Assembly (NCBI GenBank): GCA_021160245.1
Contig: JAGHCW010000171.1
Location: 1-10,516 of the forward strand
Direction of reading: 5' to 3'
Length of the DNA: 10,516 nucleotides
Origin: a bacterium
Lineage (GTDB): Bacteria > B130-G9
The notes under the pieces are model-generated. The model was not told where the DNA came from. It ran no database searches and was given only the letters and a program-made list of their open reading frames with translations. Of the stretch, positions 1,168-9,974 are shown piece after piece; within the stretch, counting starts at the first letter, position 1, and each line of letters starts with the position of its first letter. The translations under genes and the position numbers were made by a program.

Positions 1168-2565
1168 ATGGCGGCGAGTTCTTCCAGCAACACTCTCAAA
1201 GGCTATCGTGGACGGGCAAAAGAGGTTCTTAGCAGCCTCGGCGCGCGGGTATGGGCGGACGTTGAGGTTAAGACGTCAAAGGGCAATTATGTAGGGCTTA
1301 TCTTGCCCAGGTCCGAGACAGCGGACGACCAGCACATGGTCCTGAAGCTCCGCACAGGCTATAACGTCGGTGTGAACGTCAACACGATAACCGAGATATC
1401 CGAAATGGGATATAAGGAGGCGCATTACGAGATTCCCGAGAAGAAGTTTCCTTGTGATCCGGCCAAGCCAAATGTCACCTTGCTCGGAACGGGAGGCACG
1501 ATAGCATCACGGCTCGATTACAGAACGGGAGCAGTTATCCCCGCATTTTCCCCCGGGGAGCTGTACGGGGCTGTGCCTGAGCTTGCGGATATCTGCAATC
1601 TCGACACGAAGAAGCTCTTTGGCATCTTCAGCGAGGACATGTCGCCTCTGCAATGGACAACGCTTGCAAAAGGCATCGGACGTGAGATCGAAAAGGGCGT
1701 CGATGGCATCGTTATCGGACATGGTACCGACACGATGCACCATACAAGCGCGATACTGAGCTTCATGGTCCAGAACCCTCCCGTGCCGATAATTCTCGTC
1801 GGATCGCAGCGCTCCAGCGACCGGCCGTCCAGCGACGCGGCGCTGAACTTAATCAACGCGACGCGGTCGGCGGCTTACGGCGATATAGCAGAGGTTTTGG
1901 TCTGCATGTTCGGCCCGACGAGCGACCAGTATTGCCTGCTGCATCGAGGCACGCGCGTCCGCAAGATGCACTCAAGCTATCGAAGCACATTTAGGACGCT
2001 GAGCGATACCCCGGTCGGAAGGGTCTCCCCGACTGATTACGTTGTCCTGCGGGATGATGTGAAGAGACGCCGCAACGACAGGAAGGTGAAGATCGACCCC
2101 GTGTTCGAGGAGAAGGTCTCCATCGTCTATTATTATCCGAACATGAAGCCGGATATTATTGAGGCGCTGGTTGACAACGGCTACAAGGGAATTGTCATAG
2201 CGGGAACGGGCCTCGGTCATGTGAATAAGCCTCTTTACGAGCCGATCAAGAAGGCCTGCGACAAGGGTGTCCACATCTTTATGACGGTTCAGACGCTCTG
2301 GGGTTATGTCCAGATGTTCGTCTATGAGACTGGGCGGGAGCTGATGCAGCGTGGGATCGTTCCGGCCGCGAATATGCTGCCCGAGGTGGCCTACATGAAG
2401 CTTTGCTGGGTTTTAGGCCATACGCTCGAGCGGGAGAAGGTAATTGAGATGATGCTCAAACCCGTTTGTGACGAGATAACCGAGCGAGAGCCACATGACG
2501 GCTATCTAATCTTCCAAGGCGGCCTGCCGGAGGTCCAGAAGATGCTAAGGCATATCGCGAAGTAG
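1168..2565 (+). CDS. gatD: Archaeal-type Glu-tRNA(Gln) amidotransferase subunit D (GatD)
   Basis: In the GatDE complex GatD is the asparaginase-like subunit. It hydrolyses glutamine to release ammonia, which GatE uses to convert Glu-tRNA(Gln) to Gln-tRNA(Gln). The 465-residue protein has the small N-terminal GatD domain (about 27-80, with LPRSETADDQH and LKLRTGYNVGV), then the asparaginase domain. Catalytic elements are all visible: GTGGTIAS with T111, GHGTDTM with T187-D188, and RGTRVRKMHSS with K266. The C-terminal LWGYVQMFVYETGREL and MLPEVAYMKLCWVLGHT segments are specific to GatD rather than plain asparaginases AnsA/AnsB. Length is slightly above archaeal GatD (about 430-450). AGAGGG lies 6 bases before the ATG. 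GatE is not in this window. GatDE is regarded as an archaeal signature, so its presence beside bacterial genes is unusual. A GatD-derived asparaginase is the alternative. Confidence 0.9.
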   Translation: MAASSSSNTLKGYRGRAKEVLSSLGARVWADVEVKTSKGNYVGLILPRSETADDQHMVLKLRTGYNVGVNVNTITEISEMGYKEAHYEIPEKKFPCDPAKPNVTLLGTGGTIASRLDYRTGAVIPAFSPGELYGAVPELADICNLDTKKLFGIFSEDMSPLQWTTLAKGIGREIEKGVDGIVIGHGTDTMHHTSAILSFMVQNPPVPIILVGSQRSSDRPSSDAALNLINATRSAAYGDIAEVLVCMFGPTSDQYCLLHRGTRVRKMHSSYRSTFRTLSDTPVGRVSPTDYVVLRDDVKRRRNDRKVKIDPVFEEKVSIVYYYPNMKPDIIEALVDNGYKGIVIAGTGLGHVNKPLYEPIKKACDKGVHIFMTVQTLWGYVQMFVYETGRELMQRGIVPAANMLPEVAYMKLCWVLGHTLEREKVIEMMLKPVCDEITEREPHDGYLIFQGGLPEVQKMLRHIAK

Positions 2566-2851: not shown

Positions 2852-3469
2852 ATGACGATAGACGAGAAGGCCGAGACGCTATCTAGATTCGCCTGGTCGC
2901 TTGATGGATTCGTGGTTTTGGAGCGATTGAGCGAAACACCAGACCATCTGGGCGCGATCGTGGTTGATGCTGTGCTTCAGGCCGGAATCAACTACAAAAC
3001 CGTCGTGAGGCCCAGGGTTGAGAGATTGAGAGATGAGTATCCCGAGGCGCGGACGACGAGTGGCTTTCTTGCCCTAATCGATCGTGTCTGCCTCAGCGAT
3101 CTCATAGAATGGAAGGGCCAGACGAAGCTCAGCACAATTGCAGAGGTCTTGAATCTCCTCAAGCAGGAGCAGGTCGAGACTCGCTCTCAGCTAAAACTTT
3201 GGCTGCTCCAGTTCGGTAGCACATCGCGTTTGACGCAGATCAAGGGCATTGGGGAGATGACTGCCGATTACCTCAAGATGTTGGCGGGCATTGAGGTCTG
3301 CGCGGCAGATAGTCTGACAATGGGCTTCATGCGGCAAGCGGGCATTGAGCCGAAGTCGTATGATGAGGCGCGGGACATTTTATGCAGGGCGTCCAGGATG
3401 ATGGACGTTCATCCGGTCGCACTAGGCTTCAGCATCTGGGAATATATGGCCAAGCAGCCCAATAGCTGA
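2852..3469 (+). CDS. Minimal HhH-GPD DNA glycosylase-like protein
   Basis: A 205-residue, mostly helical protein with no signal peptide. Residues 128-146 (LTQIKGIGEMTADYLKMLA) form a helix-hairpin-helix, followed 7 residues later by D153 in VCAADSLTMGF. This spacing matches the HhH plus catalytic aspartate of the endonuclease III/MutY/AlkA superfamily (compare GVGxKTAN followed by VDTH). The lysine that gives endonuclease III its lyase activity is replaced by M136, and there is no C-terminal four-cysteine iron-sulfur motif. If active it would be a monofunctional base glycosylase acting on damaged DNA, or it may only bind DNA. The N-terminal 90 residues are not recognised beyond a general helical pattern. 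A purine run (AAAGAGAGA, 2837-2845) lies 6 bases before the ATG. The gene stands alone after the repeat-bearing gap and converges on the hydrolase 55 bases downstream. Confidence 0.65.
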   Translation: MTIDEKAETLSRFAWSLDGFVVLERLSETPDHLGAIVVDAVLQAGINYKTVVRPRVERLRDEYPEARTTSGFLALIDRVCLSDLIEWKGQTKLSTIAEVLNLLKQEQVETRSQLKLWLLQFGSTSRLTQIKGIGEMTADYLKMLAGIEVCAADSLTMGFMRQAGIEPKSYDEARDILCRASRMMDVHPVALGFSIWEYMAKQPNS

Positions 3470-3524: not shown

Positions 3525-4715
3525 TCAGCCCGGCATAAGCTCCCACGTATCGCCCCTTTTCTCGACGTGATGAAAGCGCATCACCTGAACGTTAAGCGGC
3601 TCCGAATCGAGTTTCAGTACCACGCTTTTGGTCTTTGGGAAGTATATCTTGCGCTCGATCTCCCGGTCTTTGGTCGAGACAGTCAGCGCGACCGGAATGT
3701 CTTCCTCTGTGAGCGTTCCAAAGTTATTGATGCGTAGTTTGGCCTCATAGGAGTCGTCCGGCAGTTTCTTGACGACCTTTGAGACTCTGAGCTGCGGCCC
3801 GTCGAATCGAACGAAGTACTTCTCAAAGAACTCGCCGACTTTGGCCCAGTATTCGGTAGGGAAGACGTCCTTCGCGGCTATGTGGCCTGTACCGGGGGAC
3901 ATCCAGAATAGCTTTGGGGGCTTGGCCTTTGCATGAAGCCTGCGCGCCATCTCGGCCGGGCAGACCTCGTCTTTTTCGTTCGCGATGATAAAAAGAGGCT
4001 TTGGCGAGACGCTGCCGACGTGTGTCAAGGCGTCGCGCTCACTCGTAAATGTGTCGCCTTCCGGCAGTTTACTGGCTAGCGATGGAGCGTATTCTTTGAA
4101 TATCCGAGGCGCCATCTCAGCAAACGATGAGAAGGGGGAATCCGCGATTATCGCATCGACCGACTTGTTGCTTGCTGCCACATTTATACCGACAGCAGCG
4201 CCGATTGATACGCCGAATATGCCGACGCGCGTTGCCGCGGGACCGAAGCTCGCCTTCGCATAATCGACGGCCGCCGAAATGTCCTTCTCAATGGATAGTA
4301 ATGATGGCTCACCACCAGAGAGGCCGGCGCCTCGATAATCGAAGGCCAGCACATTGTGGCCCAAATCGTGCAGCTGTTTCATCATGTCAACCCAGAAGCC
4401 TATGTTACCCTTTGCGCCTCGGCAAAAGACTATCGTGGCTCGGGCTCTGTCGGCCGGGATGAACCATCCGGCGAGGTTGATCTCGTCCGATGAGGGAATC
4501 ACCACGTCGGAGTAGGAAAGACCCACGCTTTCGGGAGTAACGGTCGGGGCGCCCGCATCAGACATGACCAGCTTGGATATATGTTTGTCCAAGTACGATT
4601 CCCAGTCTATGGAGAAGACTAGAATCGACACTATGATAGCGACCGACGCCAGCCCGATAATGGCAATGAATGTGATTCGCATGGCCCGGCTTGTCTGCTT
4701 CTCACTATTTGTCAT
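3525..4715 (-). CDS. Membrane-anchored alpha/beta-hydrolase with C-terminal extension
   Basis: A 396-residue serine hydrolase. Residues about 13-36 form one hydrophobic helix preceded by R10 and R13, so it is probably a signal anchor with the enzyme outside the membrane. The alpha/beta-hydrolase core (about 65-300) shows FDYRGAGLSGG (125-135), the nucleophile elbow GVSIG with S170, acid D249 in NEKDEVCP, and H278 in GTGHIAA. This is a complete Ser-Asp-His triad of the BAAT/prolyl-oligopeptidase-like type. Residues 304-396 form a beta-rich tail with no recognised family. The substrate is unknown; an esterase or peptidase is plausible. The start overlaps the end of recR by 11 bases, and GAGAGG (4721-4726) lies 5 bases before the ATG within recR, so translation is likely coupled. 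It is the last gene of the ybaB-recR transcript, an unusual position for an envelope enzyme. Confidence 0.85.
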   Translation of the reverse strand: MTNSEKQTSRAMRITFIAIIGLASVAIIVSILVFSIDWESYLDKHISKLVMSDAGAPTVTPESVGLSYSDVVIPSSDEINLAGWFIPADRARATIVFCRGAKGNIGFWVDMMKQLHDLGHNVLAFDYRGAGLSGGEPSLLSIEKDISAAVDYAKASFGPAATRVGIFGVSIGAAVGINVAASNKSVDAIIADSPFSSFAEMAPRIFKEYAPSLASKLPEGDTFTSERDALTHVGSVSPKPLFIIANEKDEVCPAEMARRLHAKAKPPKLFWMSPGTGHIAAKDVFPTEYWAKVGEFFEKYFVRFDGPQLRVSKVVKKLPDDSYEAKLRINNFGTLTEEDIPVALTVSTKDREIERKIYFPKTKSVVLKLDSEPLNVQVMRFHHVEKRGDTWELMPG

Positions 4716-5328
4716 CGTTACCTCTCTTCATGTCAACTTTTGTCCTGCCACGAATAGCTCTTCCAAGCGTGATCTCATCAACGAATTCCAGCGGCCCGCC
4801 GATCGGCACACCGAACGCAATCCTGCTAACAGAGACTCCCAACTCCGCGACCGCTCGCGATACGTAGTTGCCTGTGGCTTCGCCCTCAACATCTGTACTC
4901 GTCGCGATTATCACTTCATTTACGCCATCGCCGCTTACTCTCTTTTTAAGAGCTTCAATCGTGAGCTCTTCAGGGCCTATCCCCGAAAGTGGCGAAATCC
5001 TGCCCAGCAACACATGATATAAACCCCTATATTCCTTTGAGCGTTCCAACGACGAGATGTCCCGCGAGCTCTCCACAACGCAAATGACGTTCATATCTCG
5101 ACTCTCGTCCGAGCAGATAGCGCAGAGGTCACCTGAGGAGAGGTTAAAGCACGCTTTGCACCGGCGAACCTTCTCCCGGGCTCCACAAATAGCGTCAACA
5201 AGGGCGGCAGCTCTCTTCTCGGGCATCTTGAGAATATGAAGCCCCATTCGCTCCGCGCCTCGTCTCGATATGCCCGGCAAGCGCGATAGTTCGGTCAAAA
5301 GCCGTGTGAATTGCCGAGGGTAGCCCAT
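4705..5328 (-). CDS. recR: Recombination mediator protein RecR
   Basis: RecR works with RecO, and in some species RecF, to load RecA on SSB-coated single-stranded DNA at gaps. The 207-residue length is typical. Domains in order: a helix-hairpin-helix (LPGISRRGAERMGLHIL, 17-33), a C4 zinc finger (C57, C60, C69, C72; CxxC-8-CxxC), a Toprim domain starting near residue 80 (VICVVES with E86, then ATSTDVEGEATGNYV), and the conserved end GVPIGGPLEFVDEITL. The HhH loop reads GIS where most RecRs have GIG, a minor variation. The start is the family's usual MxYP, with only 3 bases after the ybaB stop and no strong Shine-Dalgarno site, so it probably depends on coupling to ybaB. The last 11 bases overlap the hydrolase start. 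Confidence 0.97.
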   Translation of the reverse strand: MGYPRQFTRLLTELSRLPGISRRGAERMGLHILKMPEKRAAALVDAICGAREKVRRCKACFNLSSGDLCAICSDESRDMNVICVVESSRDISSLERSKEYRGLYHVLLGRISPLSGIGPEELTIEALKKRVSGDGVNEVIIATSTDVEGEATGNYVSRAVAELGVSVSRIAFGVPIGGPLEFVDEITLGRAIRGRTKVDMKRGNDDK

Positions 5329-5331
5329 ATA

Positions 5332-5649
5332 CTACATCTGGCCTAACAGCTGAGGCGGGACGCCTAGGTCTTTCGCAAATTTGGCCATCTCCTGAGCCAT
5401 CAGTTCCCTTGACTTGCGCAGCGCGTCGTTGACCGCCGAGAGCACGAGGTCCTCAAGCATCTCCACGTCATCGTTCTCAATTACCTGTTTGTCTATCTTG
5501 ATCTCGATGACTTCCTGAGCGCCATTTGCGACTGCCCGAACCATGCCGCCGCCTACGCTGCTCTCAACGATTTTCTTTTGGGCCTCCGCTTGCGCCTCAG
5601 CCATTTTCGACTTAACTTGCTGCATTTTCTTGAAGATGTTCATGTTCAC
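5332..5649 (-). CDS. YbaB/EbfC family nucleoid-associated DNA-binding protein
   Basis: A 105-residue protein of normal family length (about 100-110). It opens with a charged coiled-coil helix (FKKMQQVKSKMAEAQAEAQ, about 6-24), followed by the conserved core with VGGGMVRAVANGAQEVIEIKID (about 32-53) and a C-terminal helix beginning MLEDLVLSAVNDALRKS. YbaB/EbfC dimers bind DNA as small nucleoid-associated proteins and are usually encoded just upstream of recR, as here. The chosen start is GTG at 5649 because AAGGGG (5659-5664) lies 9 bases before it. An ATG two codons later (5643-5641) would be 15 bases from that site. dnaX, which often precedes ybaB, is not adjacent; a divergent protease gene lies upstream. 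Confidence 0.95.
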   Translation of the reverse strand: MNMNIFKKMQQVKSKMAEAQAEAQKKIVESSVGGGMVRAVANGAQEVIEIKIDKQVIENDDVEMLEDLVLSAVNDALRKSRELMAQEMAKFAKDLGVPPQLLGQM

Positions 5650-5939: not shown

Positions 5940-8900
5940 ATGATGTCCCAACGTTCAATTCTGGCTCTGTCAACCTTGATAGCGCTGTTTTTTACGATTC
6001 CAACGCTCTTAAGCGCATTTGCGCCTCAACAATCTGATCTGCCGGTTACAAGCGTCCCGCTGGCTCCGCATAAAGCCATAGGGCCGGAAGAGTCTCAGCT
6101 TTCGCGTCTTGAGGAGTTGCTCGCGCAGCAACCTCTAACCGTGCGCTGGGCCAAAGAGACCGGCGCGCCTCGTCTCATGGAGGGCCGTCTCTTCACAATT
6201 GAAGAGAAAGATGGCGCAAGGTTACCTGAGATGCTGATTGAGCGGTTTTCTGCGTTATTCGGTGTCCGTGATGGCGTGGATGCTCTTGCTCTTGTTAAGG
6301 AGGCGCGGTCATACAGCTACACGCATCGCACTCTTGAGCAAAGCTACATGGGTATCCCAGTCTGGAGAACCAAGCTCTTGGTCCACAGTGACGGCGCGGG
6401 CATGGTTCGCACGATAAATGGAGAATTTTACCGCGACATTGAATGCTCTATTGAGCCTGAACTTTCCGCAGAGGCCGCGAGGGACATCTCTCTCGGTATG
6501 CTCGGAATTCGCGCCGACGCCGAGTACTCCTGGAAGCAGAGAATGGTAATTGCTCCGACCACAACCTTTCGGCTATCGTTTGAGATCAAGATCCAGTGCG
6601 ATGAGCCGCTCGGGGAATGGGTCTTTTTGATCGACGCCCAGAATGGGGAGCTGCTCTATATGGACAATCAGCTCTGTTTCGGCCGGGTTCAGGGCGATCT
6701 TTATGAAGTCAATCCAGAGAAAACACCCGCTGCCACGCTTCCACTGCGTGATCTTGAGGTGAAAAAACTCGGGGATTCCTATTTCACCGACGCCGACGGG
6801 TACTTCGACGCGACGGATGCCACGGTGACCGCCTTTCTGGAGGGGCCATATTGCAAGGCCCTCAATGCGGACTCGAGCAGAGCTCGCTATTCTGGAGAGC
6901 CAAATGAGATACTCTTCAGCTATGAGACCCACGACACCCACTTCGATGAGGTCTGCTCTTTCTATCACGTCAACCAGATACACGCGTGGCTGAAGGAGTG
7001 CTTGGAGTTTGACGGGATGGACTTTCAGGTGGCCGTCACAGTTCAGTACGGAGACAACTTGAATAACGCCTTCTATAGCCCCTCGAATAACGGCATTTAC
7101 TTAGGCGGAGGCTCGTCGAGAGACCCAGCCCATGAGGCCGATATCGTGATGCACGAGTACGGCCACGCGGTTGTTCACAATACAGTTGCGTTAGACTTCA
7201 GCACGTCAATGCTAGATGAGGGCTACGCGGACTACTTCACGTGCAGTTTGCACGACGATCCGTTACTCGGCGAATGGTGGAGGCCCCCGTATCTCAGGAA
7301 TCTGGACAACGATCTTGTCTATCCATTCGACATGGTCGATGAGGGGCACCATGACGGCCAGATTTGGTCAGGCGCCTTGTGGGATATCCGCGAGATATAT
7401 GGGGCTGAAGTATCGGATAGGCTCGCGCTTGGCGCCCTCTTCTATCTAAGCAGCGCTCCTGATTTCATGGAGGCAAGAAATGCGGTCATCAGCGCAGACG
7501 AGGAGTACTTCGGCTCGGAGCATCTGGCAAGCATAGTTGAGATATTCTGCAAGCGAGGCATATCCGAGATTCGCACATCCAGCTGGTCTATAACAGAGAC
7601 AGAGGGCAATGGAGACGGTCTTGTTGACCCGGGCGAGACGCTCGAGCTTGAAATTCAGGTTCGCAATGTTGTTGATGACCCCATACCGGCCTCATATCTT
7701 GCCTTGACGTCGATGAGCGAATATGCCGAAGTAATCTCCGGGCTTTCTCCGGTTCCCGCGATAGACGCAAAGAAGAAAGCACAGACTTCGCAAACCCTAA
7801 GCTTCGTCGTTTCACCAGATTGCCCGCCCGACGGGACGCTGGAGTTCAATGTGAAGATGGGATATGACGTGGATGCGATCATTTACGCCGGCTCCCTCGA
7901 GATTGCGCTCGGCAGCGCTCCCCAAATCGTCGTCTCCGACTACAAGATCGTCGACTTCACCGGAAATCGCGACATGGAGGCGAACGCTGGTGAGATGATT
8001 GTCCCTCTGATAAGCCTCATCAACGAGGGCGGTGCGACCGCGGGAAGCGTCAGGTTGATGGCGTACACCGACAGCCCTTACGTCAATTCCCATGAGGCGT
8101 ACTCATCAATGTACAGTAATTCCGTGGGCTATGGGGACATAGGCCCGGGGCAGGATGTTAGCGACCCCGGCAGCGATGACAGCGTCATTCTCCTCCTCGA
8201 TTCTGATACCCCGGATGGCCATCAGTTCCAGCTCGACTATGACATAACAGAAGATAATGGGCGGATGTGGACCGGCAGCATAGACATCACCGTGACCGGC
8301 GAGGACGAGACCGCTCCGTGGGTTGCGATGTCCCAAGCCAATCCTAGATTGGTCAATAGAGGTGACTTCTTCTACTGCTATGTCTTTGTGGTTGAGCCGG
8401 GCGACATTCAATCCGTCTCAGGCAAACTGCATAACAGAGAGGGCGAAGATTTCGGCAGCGTCTATTTCATCGAATACTACTCGGGACTATACATGGGCTA
8501 CGGCTTGATGCCAGCAAACGAGGACCTCTTCCTGGACGTCACAACTCGGGATGCAAAGGGCAATAGTGGCGTGAAGAAGAACACTTGTGCTCTCGGCCCA
8601 ACCAAATTCGAGACCGAGTGCAAGGTGCTCTATGTCGCGGACGATTTCGCTGACATCAGCCAGACAAGGCAGCCAACGATGGATGCGCTAGCGGCAATCG
8701 GCCTAGATGTGGACGTCTGGGAAACGGAGATAAGGTCCGTTCCGGGCAATGCGACACTCAGCAAATACTTGGATGGCCTCGTCATCTTCGAGACTAAATA
8801 CAATCCCATCAACATGTCCCACACAGCGTATTTGGCCTATCTCCCTTCGGCCATTTCCGATTATCTCGACAAGGGCGGAAAGGCGCTCCTGATGGGCCAA

Positions 8901-9974
8901 AGGTTCGGCTCTTTCTATAGCGCTTACTACGAGCAAGGCACGTTTCTTGAGGACTATTTCGGTGTGGAGCTTGTGGGCAGTAAATCCGCGGATGAACAGA
9001 TAGTGCTTGTGGGCACGGAAGGTGATCCGATAACTGACGGCCTGACGCTCAACCTCGTTCAAGGCGACATCGAGTATCAGACAACGCCTGACATTCTCAA
9101 TCCGATTGGCAATTGCCAGCCGATCCTGCGATTCGCGGACAACCTGAGCCAGAAGGCCGGCGTTAGCGTCGAGGCAGACGGCTATCGGGCGGCATATATG
9201 ACCGTCAATCTCTGTGATATTGAGAGTGAGCAGGACCGCAATCTGCTGCTTTCTAGGATAATTGAATGGCTGAACTCCACAGTGCATCGCCCGAGCGGAC
9301 TGCCGATCTACGCTGGCGGCTTCGGTGGGACAACACTCACCTCCGAAGGTGGCCTTCTGAAGGTCCAAGCATTCGCCAACCCGCTCTATGGCATCGACAG
9401 CATCGAGCTTTATTACGACAATATACCGCTTGGTATTCCGCTATTTGAGACAGACGACAATTACTACTCCGCTGAGGTCGAGATCGGACCGGTCGCGCCC
9501 GGGTCTTATGCTCTCTCGCTGGTAGCGTTGCTTGACAGCGGCGAGCAGATCGTGGTGTGGCCATATTTGCCAGTCGGCGCCTACGAGGACTGGACGCTCG
9601 CGTCCGCGCCTCCGATTGCAGAAACTCCGGCGCCGATGAGCGCGGACGCGCCAAAGATACTCGCGGCCGGCTTCTGCGCGACGGACATTTCTTATGACCT
9701 AGGCGGCACTCTGCATGTGGTTGCCCAAGTATCTGACCCGGATGGCCTCGATGACATCGAGTCGGTCTCAATGGCACTTGACCTGCCAGGCGGTCTTCTT
9801 CTTCTTGACCTATTTGATGACGGATTAAACGGCGATTTCGCCTCAAATGACGGCATCTTTGGCACGATTCTTCAGGTTCAGGGCCTATCGACTGGCCTAC
9901 ACCCCGCGACAATAGTTGCCAAAGACACATCGGGAGGCGAGGGGCACTGGCCGCAAATAACCATTGGGGAGTGA
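5940..9974 (+). CDS. Secreted multidomain zinc metalloprotease, fungalysin/thermolysin type
   Basis: A 1344-residue secreted protease. A signal peptide (about 1-28) is followed by an FTP/PepSY-like propeptide (about 55-242) and an M36-like linker with NPEKTP. The catalytic domain (about 328-540) has HEYGH (H405, E406, H409) and a third zinc ligand E427 in DEGYADYF, 18 residues after H409. HHDGQIWSGALWDI (470-483) corresponds to the later conserved histidine segment of M36/M4 enzymes. Two beta-sandwich domains follow, each opening with a GNxD...GE motif (GNGDGLVDPGE near 557 and GNRDMEANAGE near 674). Then come a third beta domain (about 789-880), a GATase1-like alpha/beta domain (about 890-1112) whose elbow reads MGQRFG and lacks a cysteine, and two more beta domains. 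The last contains LFDDGLNGDFASNDGIFG. No cell-wall or outer-membrane sorting tail is evident. It probably degrades extracellular protein; residue limits are approximate. Confidence 0.88.
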   Translation: MMSQRSILALSTLIALFFTIPTLLSAFAPQQSDLPVTSVPLAPHKAIGPEESQLSRLEELLAQQPLTVRWAKETGAPRLMEGRLFTIEEKDGARLPEMLIERFSALFGVRDGVDALALVKEARSYSYTHRTLEQSYMGIPVWRTKLLVHSDGAGMVRTINGEFYRDIECSIEPELSAEAARDISLGMLGIRADAEYSWKQRMVIAPTTTFRLSFEIKIQCDEPLGEWVFLIDAQNGELLYMDNQLCFGRVQGDLYEVNPEKTPAATLPLRDLEVKKLGDSYFTDADGYFDATDATVTAFLEGPYCKALNADSSRARYSGEPNEILFSYETHDTHFDEVCSFYHVNQIHAWLKECLEFDGMDFQVAVTVQYGDNLNNAFYSPSNNGIYLGGGSSRDPAHEADIVMHEYGHAVVHNTVALDFSTSMLDEGYADYFTCSLHDDPLLGEWWRPPYLRNLDNDLVYPFDMVDEGHHDGQIWSGALWDIREIYGAEVSDRLALGALFYLSSAPDFMEARNAVISADEEYFGSEHLASIVEIFCKRGISEIRTSSWSITETEGNGDGLVDPGETLELEIQVRNVVDDPIPASYLALTSMSEYAEVISGLSPVPAIDAKKKAQTSQTLSFVVSPDCPPDGTLEFNVKMGYDVDAIIYAGSLEIALGSAPQIVVSDYKIVDFTGNRDMEANAGEMIVPLISLINEGGATAGSVRLMAYTDSPYVNSHEAYSSMYSNSVGYGDIGPGQDVSDPGSDDSVILLLDSDTPDGHQFQLDYDITEDNGRMWTGSIDITVTGEDETAPWVAMSQANPRLVNRGDFFYCYVFVVEPGDIQSVSGKLHNREGEDFGSVYFIEYYSGLYMGYGLMPANEDLFLDVTTRDAKGNSGVKKNTCALGPTKFETECKVLYVADDFADISQTRQPTMDALAAIGLDVDVWETEIRSVPGNATLSKYLDGLVIFETKYNPINMSHTAYLAYLPSAISDYLDKGGKALLMGQRFGSFYSAYYEQGTFLEDYFGVELVGSKSADEQIVLVGTEGDPITDGLTLNLVQGDIEYQTTPDILNPIGNCQPILRFADNLSQKAGVSVEADGYRAAYMTVNLCDIESEQDRNLLLSRIIEWLNSTVHRPSGLPIYAGGFGGTTLTSEGGLLKVQAFANPLYGIDSIELYYDNIPLGIPLFETDDNYYSAEVEIGPVAPGSYALSLVALLDSGEQIVVWPYLPVGAYEDWTLASAPPIAETPAPMSADAPKILAAGFCATDISYDLGGTLHVVAQVSDPDGLDDIESVSMALDLPGGLLLLDLFDDGLNGDFASNDGIFGTILQVQGLSTGLHPATIVAKDTSGGEGHWPQITIGE
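9966..9971 (+). promoter_or_regulatory. Ribosome binding site for the cyclic-nucleotide-binding gene
   Basis: GGGGAG lies in the final codons of the protease gene, 8 bases before ATG 9980. The in-frame GTG at 9971, which overlaps the protease stop, has no site at proper distance. The ATG is therefore the better start, and translation is probably coupled to termination at 9974. Confidence 0.65.

Follow-up and report, generated by a model that had tools for sequence, protein, structure and literature searches.

GatDE has been described as an archaeal signature that is exclusive to archaea (PMC8762117, PMC9499178), and the gene studied here raises the question of what a GatD subunit does in a bacterium. 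No paper reporting a bacterial GatDE was found in the open-licence literature that was searched, which lacks most of the subscription journals. Bacterial genes of this kind may already be so named by automated annotation. The window, that is, the whole stretch of 10,516 nucleotides that was analyzed, belongs to a draft metagenome assembly (G000; 3.43 Mb, 244 contigs, 94.8% complete), and the nearest named relative, 89% identical, is from Candidatus Coatesbacteria, a little-known phylum. Judged from sequence, the gene encodes the GatD subunit of what is probably a complete GatDE, a tRNA-dependent amidotransferase. We favor a reading in which the host GatDE is an intact member of a second, mainly bacterial subfamily and would amidate Glu-tRNA(Gln), providing a route that runs parallel to another one and is connected with the supply of glutamine.

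The gatD open reading frame begins with ATG, ends with TAG and carries the following features:

1168..2565, plus strand: gatD, 465 amino acids, amide-donor (glutaminase/asparaginase-type) subunit of GatDE (TIGR02153, PDB 2d6f/1zq1, GatD tree)
1258..1398, plus strand: GatD_N domain, residues 31-77 (Pfam PF18195, 49.5 bits, cut-off 25.7)
1471..2046, plus strand: asparaginase N-terminal domain, residues 102-293 (Pfam PF00710, 186 bits)
2113..2454, plus strand: asparaginase C-terminal domain (Asparaginase_C), residues 316-429 (Pfam PF17763, 112 bits)
1498-1500, plus strand: catalytic T111 (GatD alignment)
1726-1728, plus strand: catalytic T187 (GatD alignment)
1729-1731, plus strand: catalytic D188 (GatD alignment)
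1963-1965, plus strand: catalytic K266 (GatD alignment)

The protein matched TIGR02153 (gatD_arch) over its full length with 511 bits (NCBIfam cut-off 324) and PRK04183 with 510 bits (cut-off 310), whereas asparaginase models scored it lower (asnASE_I, 392 bits; type II models, far under their cut-offs). Its best matches among solved structures were the GatD chains 2d6f (411 bits) and 1zq1 (410 bits), compared to only 153 bits for the top asparaginase structure. The four catalytic residues were invariant in 105 aligned GatD sequences, 79 from the bacterial clade and 26 canonical. An earlier note on this DNA, which had recognized a GatD with its specific N-terminal domain and all four of these residues, was correct on both points. 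In a tree with one asparaginase, included as outgroup only, the window protein fell within GatD and far from the asparaginase, the placement that the earlier note had associated with a working GatDE. Type I and type II L-asparaginases have the fold and the T/T/D/K site in common with GatD, but GatD is set apart by the additional GatD_N domain, higher scores with GatD models, its distant position in the tree and its GatE partner.

That partner was found by searching the same genome. gatE is located on another host contig (G000:C103:34330-36225) and scored 478.5 bits against a cut-off of 319.55, so that GatD repurposed as an asparaginase without GatE, which the earlier note had considered, is excluded for this host, and the subunit that it had expected of a working GatDE is present. 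When compared with solved structures, the host GatE matched archaeal GatE chains at ~324 bits and the best GatB at 109 bits. An AlphaFold2 model of GatE (mean pLDDT 80.1) had 1zq1_C and 2d6f as its best structural matches (E 7e-44 and 7e-42, respectively), ahead of every GatB. The GatB_Yqey tail was recognized in 13 of 18 GatE proteins and the GAD insert, by Pfam, in only 6 of 18. Residues H15, E157, E158 and E184 (M. thermautotrophicus numbering) were kept in both GatDE subfamilies; H15, E157 and E184 are reported to be catalytic in published structure work. Among the Coatesbacteria, GatE was present in all four genomes and GatD in three, two sister genomes as well as the host; the genome without GatD is 83% complete. 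In two of these genomes gatD lies close to selA and the gene for the CCA-adding enzyme, followed in one by argS. Each of the four also has a radical SAM/SPASM gene that either overlaps the gatE end or begins shortly ahead of it:

L010:11225-12229, with equivalents in L184, L185 and L014: radical SAM/SPASM gene downstream of gatE

A scan of a genome collection with a three-sequence GatD profile returned 429 related stretches, of which the best 80 were analyzed. Apart from members of its own phylum, the best 80 of the 429 were 68-74% identical to the window protein. They carried more than a dozen bacterial phylum labels, taken from database records and perhaps wrong in a few cases, including Zixibacteria, Latescibacterota, Krumholzibacteria, Aminicenantes, Fermentibacteria, Ignavibacteria/Bacteroidota, Neomarinimicrobia, KSB1, Gemmatimonadota, Planctomycetota and others. 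Six records among the best 80 were archaeal (five Thermoplasmata/Thermoplasmatota and one Euryarchaeota) and formed one clade in both the GatD and the GatE trees. Of the 80 loci, 62 also contained gatE next to gatD; in bacterial loci it usually ended a few tens of bases before gatD, forming a gatE-gatD operon.

In the GatD tree, the window and bacterial sequences formed an 84-row clade (SH-aLRT 100) on a long stem inside GatD. This clade was separated from most GatD of Thermoplasmatota and adjacent to the proteins of M. thermautotrophicus and P. abyssi; the root of this tree is unreliable, as its single asparaginase outgroup is very distant. Rooting the GatE tree with GatB gave canonical archaeal GatE (100/97) as the sister of a clade in which bacterial GatE was joined by the six archaeal sequences (93/97); bacterial-type GatE did not branch inside the canonical archaeal clade. 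The archaeal enzymes of Pyrococcus abyssi (1zq1) and Methanothermobacter thermautotrophicus (2d6f) have the same subunit domain layout, catalytic residues and GatE fold. In contrast to them, the bacterial-type set is a separate clade distinguished by fixed or near-fixed substitutions at 17 GatE and 14 GatD positions, occurs mostly in genomes with GlnRS or GatCAB, is usually encoded as a gatE-gatD operon and, in some lineages, often lies near glnA. GatB and GatE share a catalytic domain and chemistry, and bacterial GatE shows a GatB-like RK(Q/N)Y motif; however, the host GatB is a separate gene product that groups apart from all GatE, and GatA, which belongs to the amidase family, is not related to GatD. 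By these comparisons of sequence, the host GatDE belongs to a distinct, mainly bacterial second subfamily and is not a recent private acquisition. The pattern is consistent with a mainly bacterial subfamily that is probably old and was transferred later, in some cases apparently into Thermoplasmatota. The earlier proposal that this lineage gained GatDE by transfer was too narrow: GatDE of this subfamily occurs under many phylum labels, mostly as an operon, and long stems separate it from canonical archaeal GatDE. Evolutionary reasoning on GatDE and GatCAB in the last common ancestor has been built on an archaea-only distribution, and is changed by a widespread bacterial subfamily that is sister to archaeal GatDE.

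The distribution of other routes to Gln-tRNA was assessed in 50 GatDE-bearing genomes, which were sampled by closeness and spread rather than at random. GlnRS scored above cut-off in 31 of the 50, AsnRS in 43 and GatA in 19, with GatA truncated at contig ends in two more. GlnRS and AsnRS without detected GatA occurred in 21 genomes, GlnRS and GatA together in 10, and GatA without GlnRS, as in the host, in 11; seven genomes, apparently incomplete, had neither GlnRS nor GatA, and one (G030) had a fragmented GlnRS. The presence of GlnRS is positive evidence, whereas the absence of GatA in draft assemblies is weaker. Both G008, a single-contig MAG of Gemmatimonadota (5.04 Mb), and G041, a MAG of Thermoplasmata (5.16 Mb), were of the type with GlnRS and AsnRS. 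The earlier note's assumption that in bacteria GatCAB or GlnRS takes the place of GatDE did not hold, since most sampled GatDE genomes also have one of those. In the 21 genomes with GlnRS and AsnRS but no detected GatA, making ordinary Gln-tRNA and Asn-tRNA does not require GatDE. The direct GlnRS route has the same presumed product as GatDE, Gln-tRNA(Gln), and is absent from the host although it accompanies GatDE in many relatives; an ordinary GatDE role is hard to justify in many genomes because GlnRS should leave Glu-tRNA(Gln) scarce there. This coexistence raises a testable question, namely why a tRNA-dependent glutamine maker is kept beside direct Gln-tRNA synthesis.

The archaeal-labelled members had features of their own. 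G041 encodes a second, canonical archaeal GatD besides the bacterial-type GatD, and in this genome (L061, L234, L250, L261) GlnRS is flanked by three archaeal-type tRNA-Gln genes, with a bacterial-type tRNA-Gln(UUG) with U1:A72 in addition. No archaeon is reported to have GlnRS (PMC9499178). Five archaeal-labelled genomes (L047, L054, L061, L086, L089) carried a full-length GlnRS above cut-off together with an archaeal-like second GlxRS match. A dense cluster of tRNA-like matches, several of them low scoring, was also observed in the Thermoplasmata MAG (L235, G041:C1:4640400-4643700).

The host itself had no GlnRS above cut-off in a family-model search of the genome and a single, bacterial GluRS. 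Of the genes that the earlier note had named for the host, GatA (present in all four Coatesbacteria genomes) and GatB were found, while GlnRS was not, and GatC was not found beside gatA, in the neighborhood where it was sought. A complete GatCAB in the host is likely. AsnRS and an AspRS-like gene were also found. The host tRNA-Gln(UUG) and tRNA-Gln(CUG) are canonical, and both carry the bacterial U1:A72 pair and not A1:U72, which archaeal GatDE is reported to read (PMC9499178).

In the pathway that we propose from the known family, GluRS would load Glu onto tRNA, GatE would activate the Glu side chain using ATP, and GatD would free ammonia from Gln or Asn, such that GatDE would turn Glu-tRNA into Gln-tRNA. 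The acceptor would be tRNA(Gln), and GatDE may serve as a parallel or conditional route beside GatCAB in the host, or beside GlnRS in many relatives, tied to glutamine supply. The tie to glutamine supply is suggested because glutamine synthetase adjoins gatDE in several lineages. It lies near gatDE, often directly upstream, in nine loci from several phyla (L031, L039, L048, L053, L054, L061, L090, L037 and L043), and the five members that were scanned matched Pfam PF00120. A tRNA-Gln(CUG) gene with A1:U72 follows gatE in two Thermoplasmatota loci, and in L054 the gene order is gatE, tRNA-Gln(CUG), glnA. One bacterial operon is preceded by a same-strand tRNA-Glu(CUC) gene, ~190 bases before gatE (L077:2802-2878).

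Another tRNA gene lies upstream of gatE in all four Coatesbacteria, on the same strand and about 90-140 nt before gatE, in addition to the canonical tRNA-Gln(UUG) and tRNA-Gln(CUG) of the host:

L010:9136-9210: extra tRNA of the host (Rfam tRNA, 43.8 bits)
L013:1309-1383: extra tRNA, gatE upstream region
L014:3196-3270, minus strand: extra tRNA, gatE upstream region
L015:1267-1341: extra tRNA, gatE upstream region

The extra tRNAs were 76-93% identical between the four genomes, compared to 49-61% for their flanks and about 51% for shuffled sequence, and the linkage to gatE looks selected because genes further upstream differ. Their anticodons are UUA, CUA, UUA and CUG. U33 and a purine at position 37 were found in 84 of 88 parsed tRNAs, the only exceptions being these four, all of which have a pyrimidine at 37 while one also lacks U33. 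All four genes encode the CCA end; the host tRNA has U1:A72, and in the three sisters A1 faces A72. Although pairing was kept in 93% of cells, covariation among the four sequences did not exceed shuffles, and most single-sequence folds had another shape than a cloverleaf; the cloverleaf is therefore assigned from ARAGORN and the Rfam tRNA model. ARAGORN labelled the extra tRNA of G002 as a pyrrolysine tRNA, a label that follows from the CUA anticodon only. Suppression of stop codons is unlikely, as TAG and TAA are ordinary stops (gatD itself ends in TAG) and the loop lacks purine 37; the extra tRNA resembles neither a normal decoder nor a strong suppressor. This conserved odd tRNA beside gatE offers a concrete place to look for the role of the enzyme.

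The main difficulty for a tRNA(Gln) route is its redundancy with GlnRS or GatCAB, together with the bacterial-type tRNA-Gln (U1:A72) of the host, and other readings were weighed with this in mind. GatDE might serve a dedicated tRNA, in Coatesbacteria the extra one, with the Gln-tRNA used off the ribosome, or the RNA might control gatE. We regard this as unlikely, even though the position of the extra tRNA before gatE in every genome despite variable genes farther upstream, its conservation above that of the flanks, its chargeable acceptor end, its unique departure from the U33 and purine-37 rule, its presence beside canonical tRNA-Gln genes and the improbability of suppression would all agree with it. 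Set against these points, it is confined to four genomes of one family, no enzyme is known to use its product, and the nearest host tRNA in G003 is ambiguous between tRNA-Gln and tRNA-Pro. No such odd tRNA was detected near gatDE in other phyla among the loci examined, an absence that means little in G008 and G011, where tRNA inventories are incomplete. Still more doubtful is the general claim that bacteria hold a second GatDE with its own non-decoding tRNA, in Coatesbacteria the one upstream of gatE; this tRNA would be charged with Glu, undergo amidation by GatDE and then donate glutamine outside ordinary translation. There is also a small chance that bacterial GatDE has stopped making Gln-tRNA(Gln) and acts on a different acceptor, such as Asp-tRNA or some other glutamylated molecule. 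The switched positions in GatE and GatD may mean a changed substrate, and they include subfamily-wide switches near conserved GatE motifs (canonical RK..IDGSNT versus bacterial RKQYLDGSIP); the genomes with GlnRS and AsnRS but no detected GatA, and the two types of GatD in G041, point the same way. However, the residues for kinase and amidase catalysis are retained, most GatE proteins have a recognizable tRNA-binding tail domain, and the linkage to glnA and, in two Thermoplasmatota, to tRNA-Gln points to glutamine and tRNA-Gln.

It is very unlikely that GatDE is instead the main Gln-tRNA route of the host, with GatCAB left over or used for Asn-tRNA as in archaea. The lack of GlnRS would suit such a role, and GatCAB with GatDE is the archaeal combination (PMC9499178), but the AsnRS of the host means that GatCAB is not required for Asn-tRNA, and its tRNA-Gln genes are of the bacterial U1:A72 type. 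Contamination or a chimera of the contig is hardly credible, and so is a GatD that works by itself as an asparaginase. The draft state of the assembly and the location of gatD and gatE on separate contigs would allow the former, but both genes recur in sister genomes beside bacterial genes (selA, the CCA-adding enzyme, argS), the tree groups the window GatD with its own phylum, and misbinning is argued against because some gatE-gatD operons sit on large bacterial contigs and single-contig MAG chromosomes; contamination was rejected on these grounds. The gatE of the host speaks against a lone asparaginase, which was likewise discarded. An intact GatDE that would act on Glu-tRNA(Gln) in parallel to another route is the reading that we prefer.

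The remainder of the window holds genes outside the GatDE system. The earlier note had placed recR and ybaB on the same stretch, and both were confirmed as genuine bacterial genes with matches above cut-off:

4705..5649, minus strand: recR and ybaB/ebfC, bacterial context genes (TIGR00615, 235 bits; TIGR00103, 81 bits)

A 205-amino-acid open reading frame at 2852-3469 had no Pfam or NCBIfam matches. The region at 5940-9974 encodes a protein of 1344 amino acids with fungalysin/thermolysin-type metallopeptidase domains (M36/M4, FTP) and a choice-of-anchor X domain.
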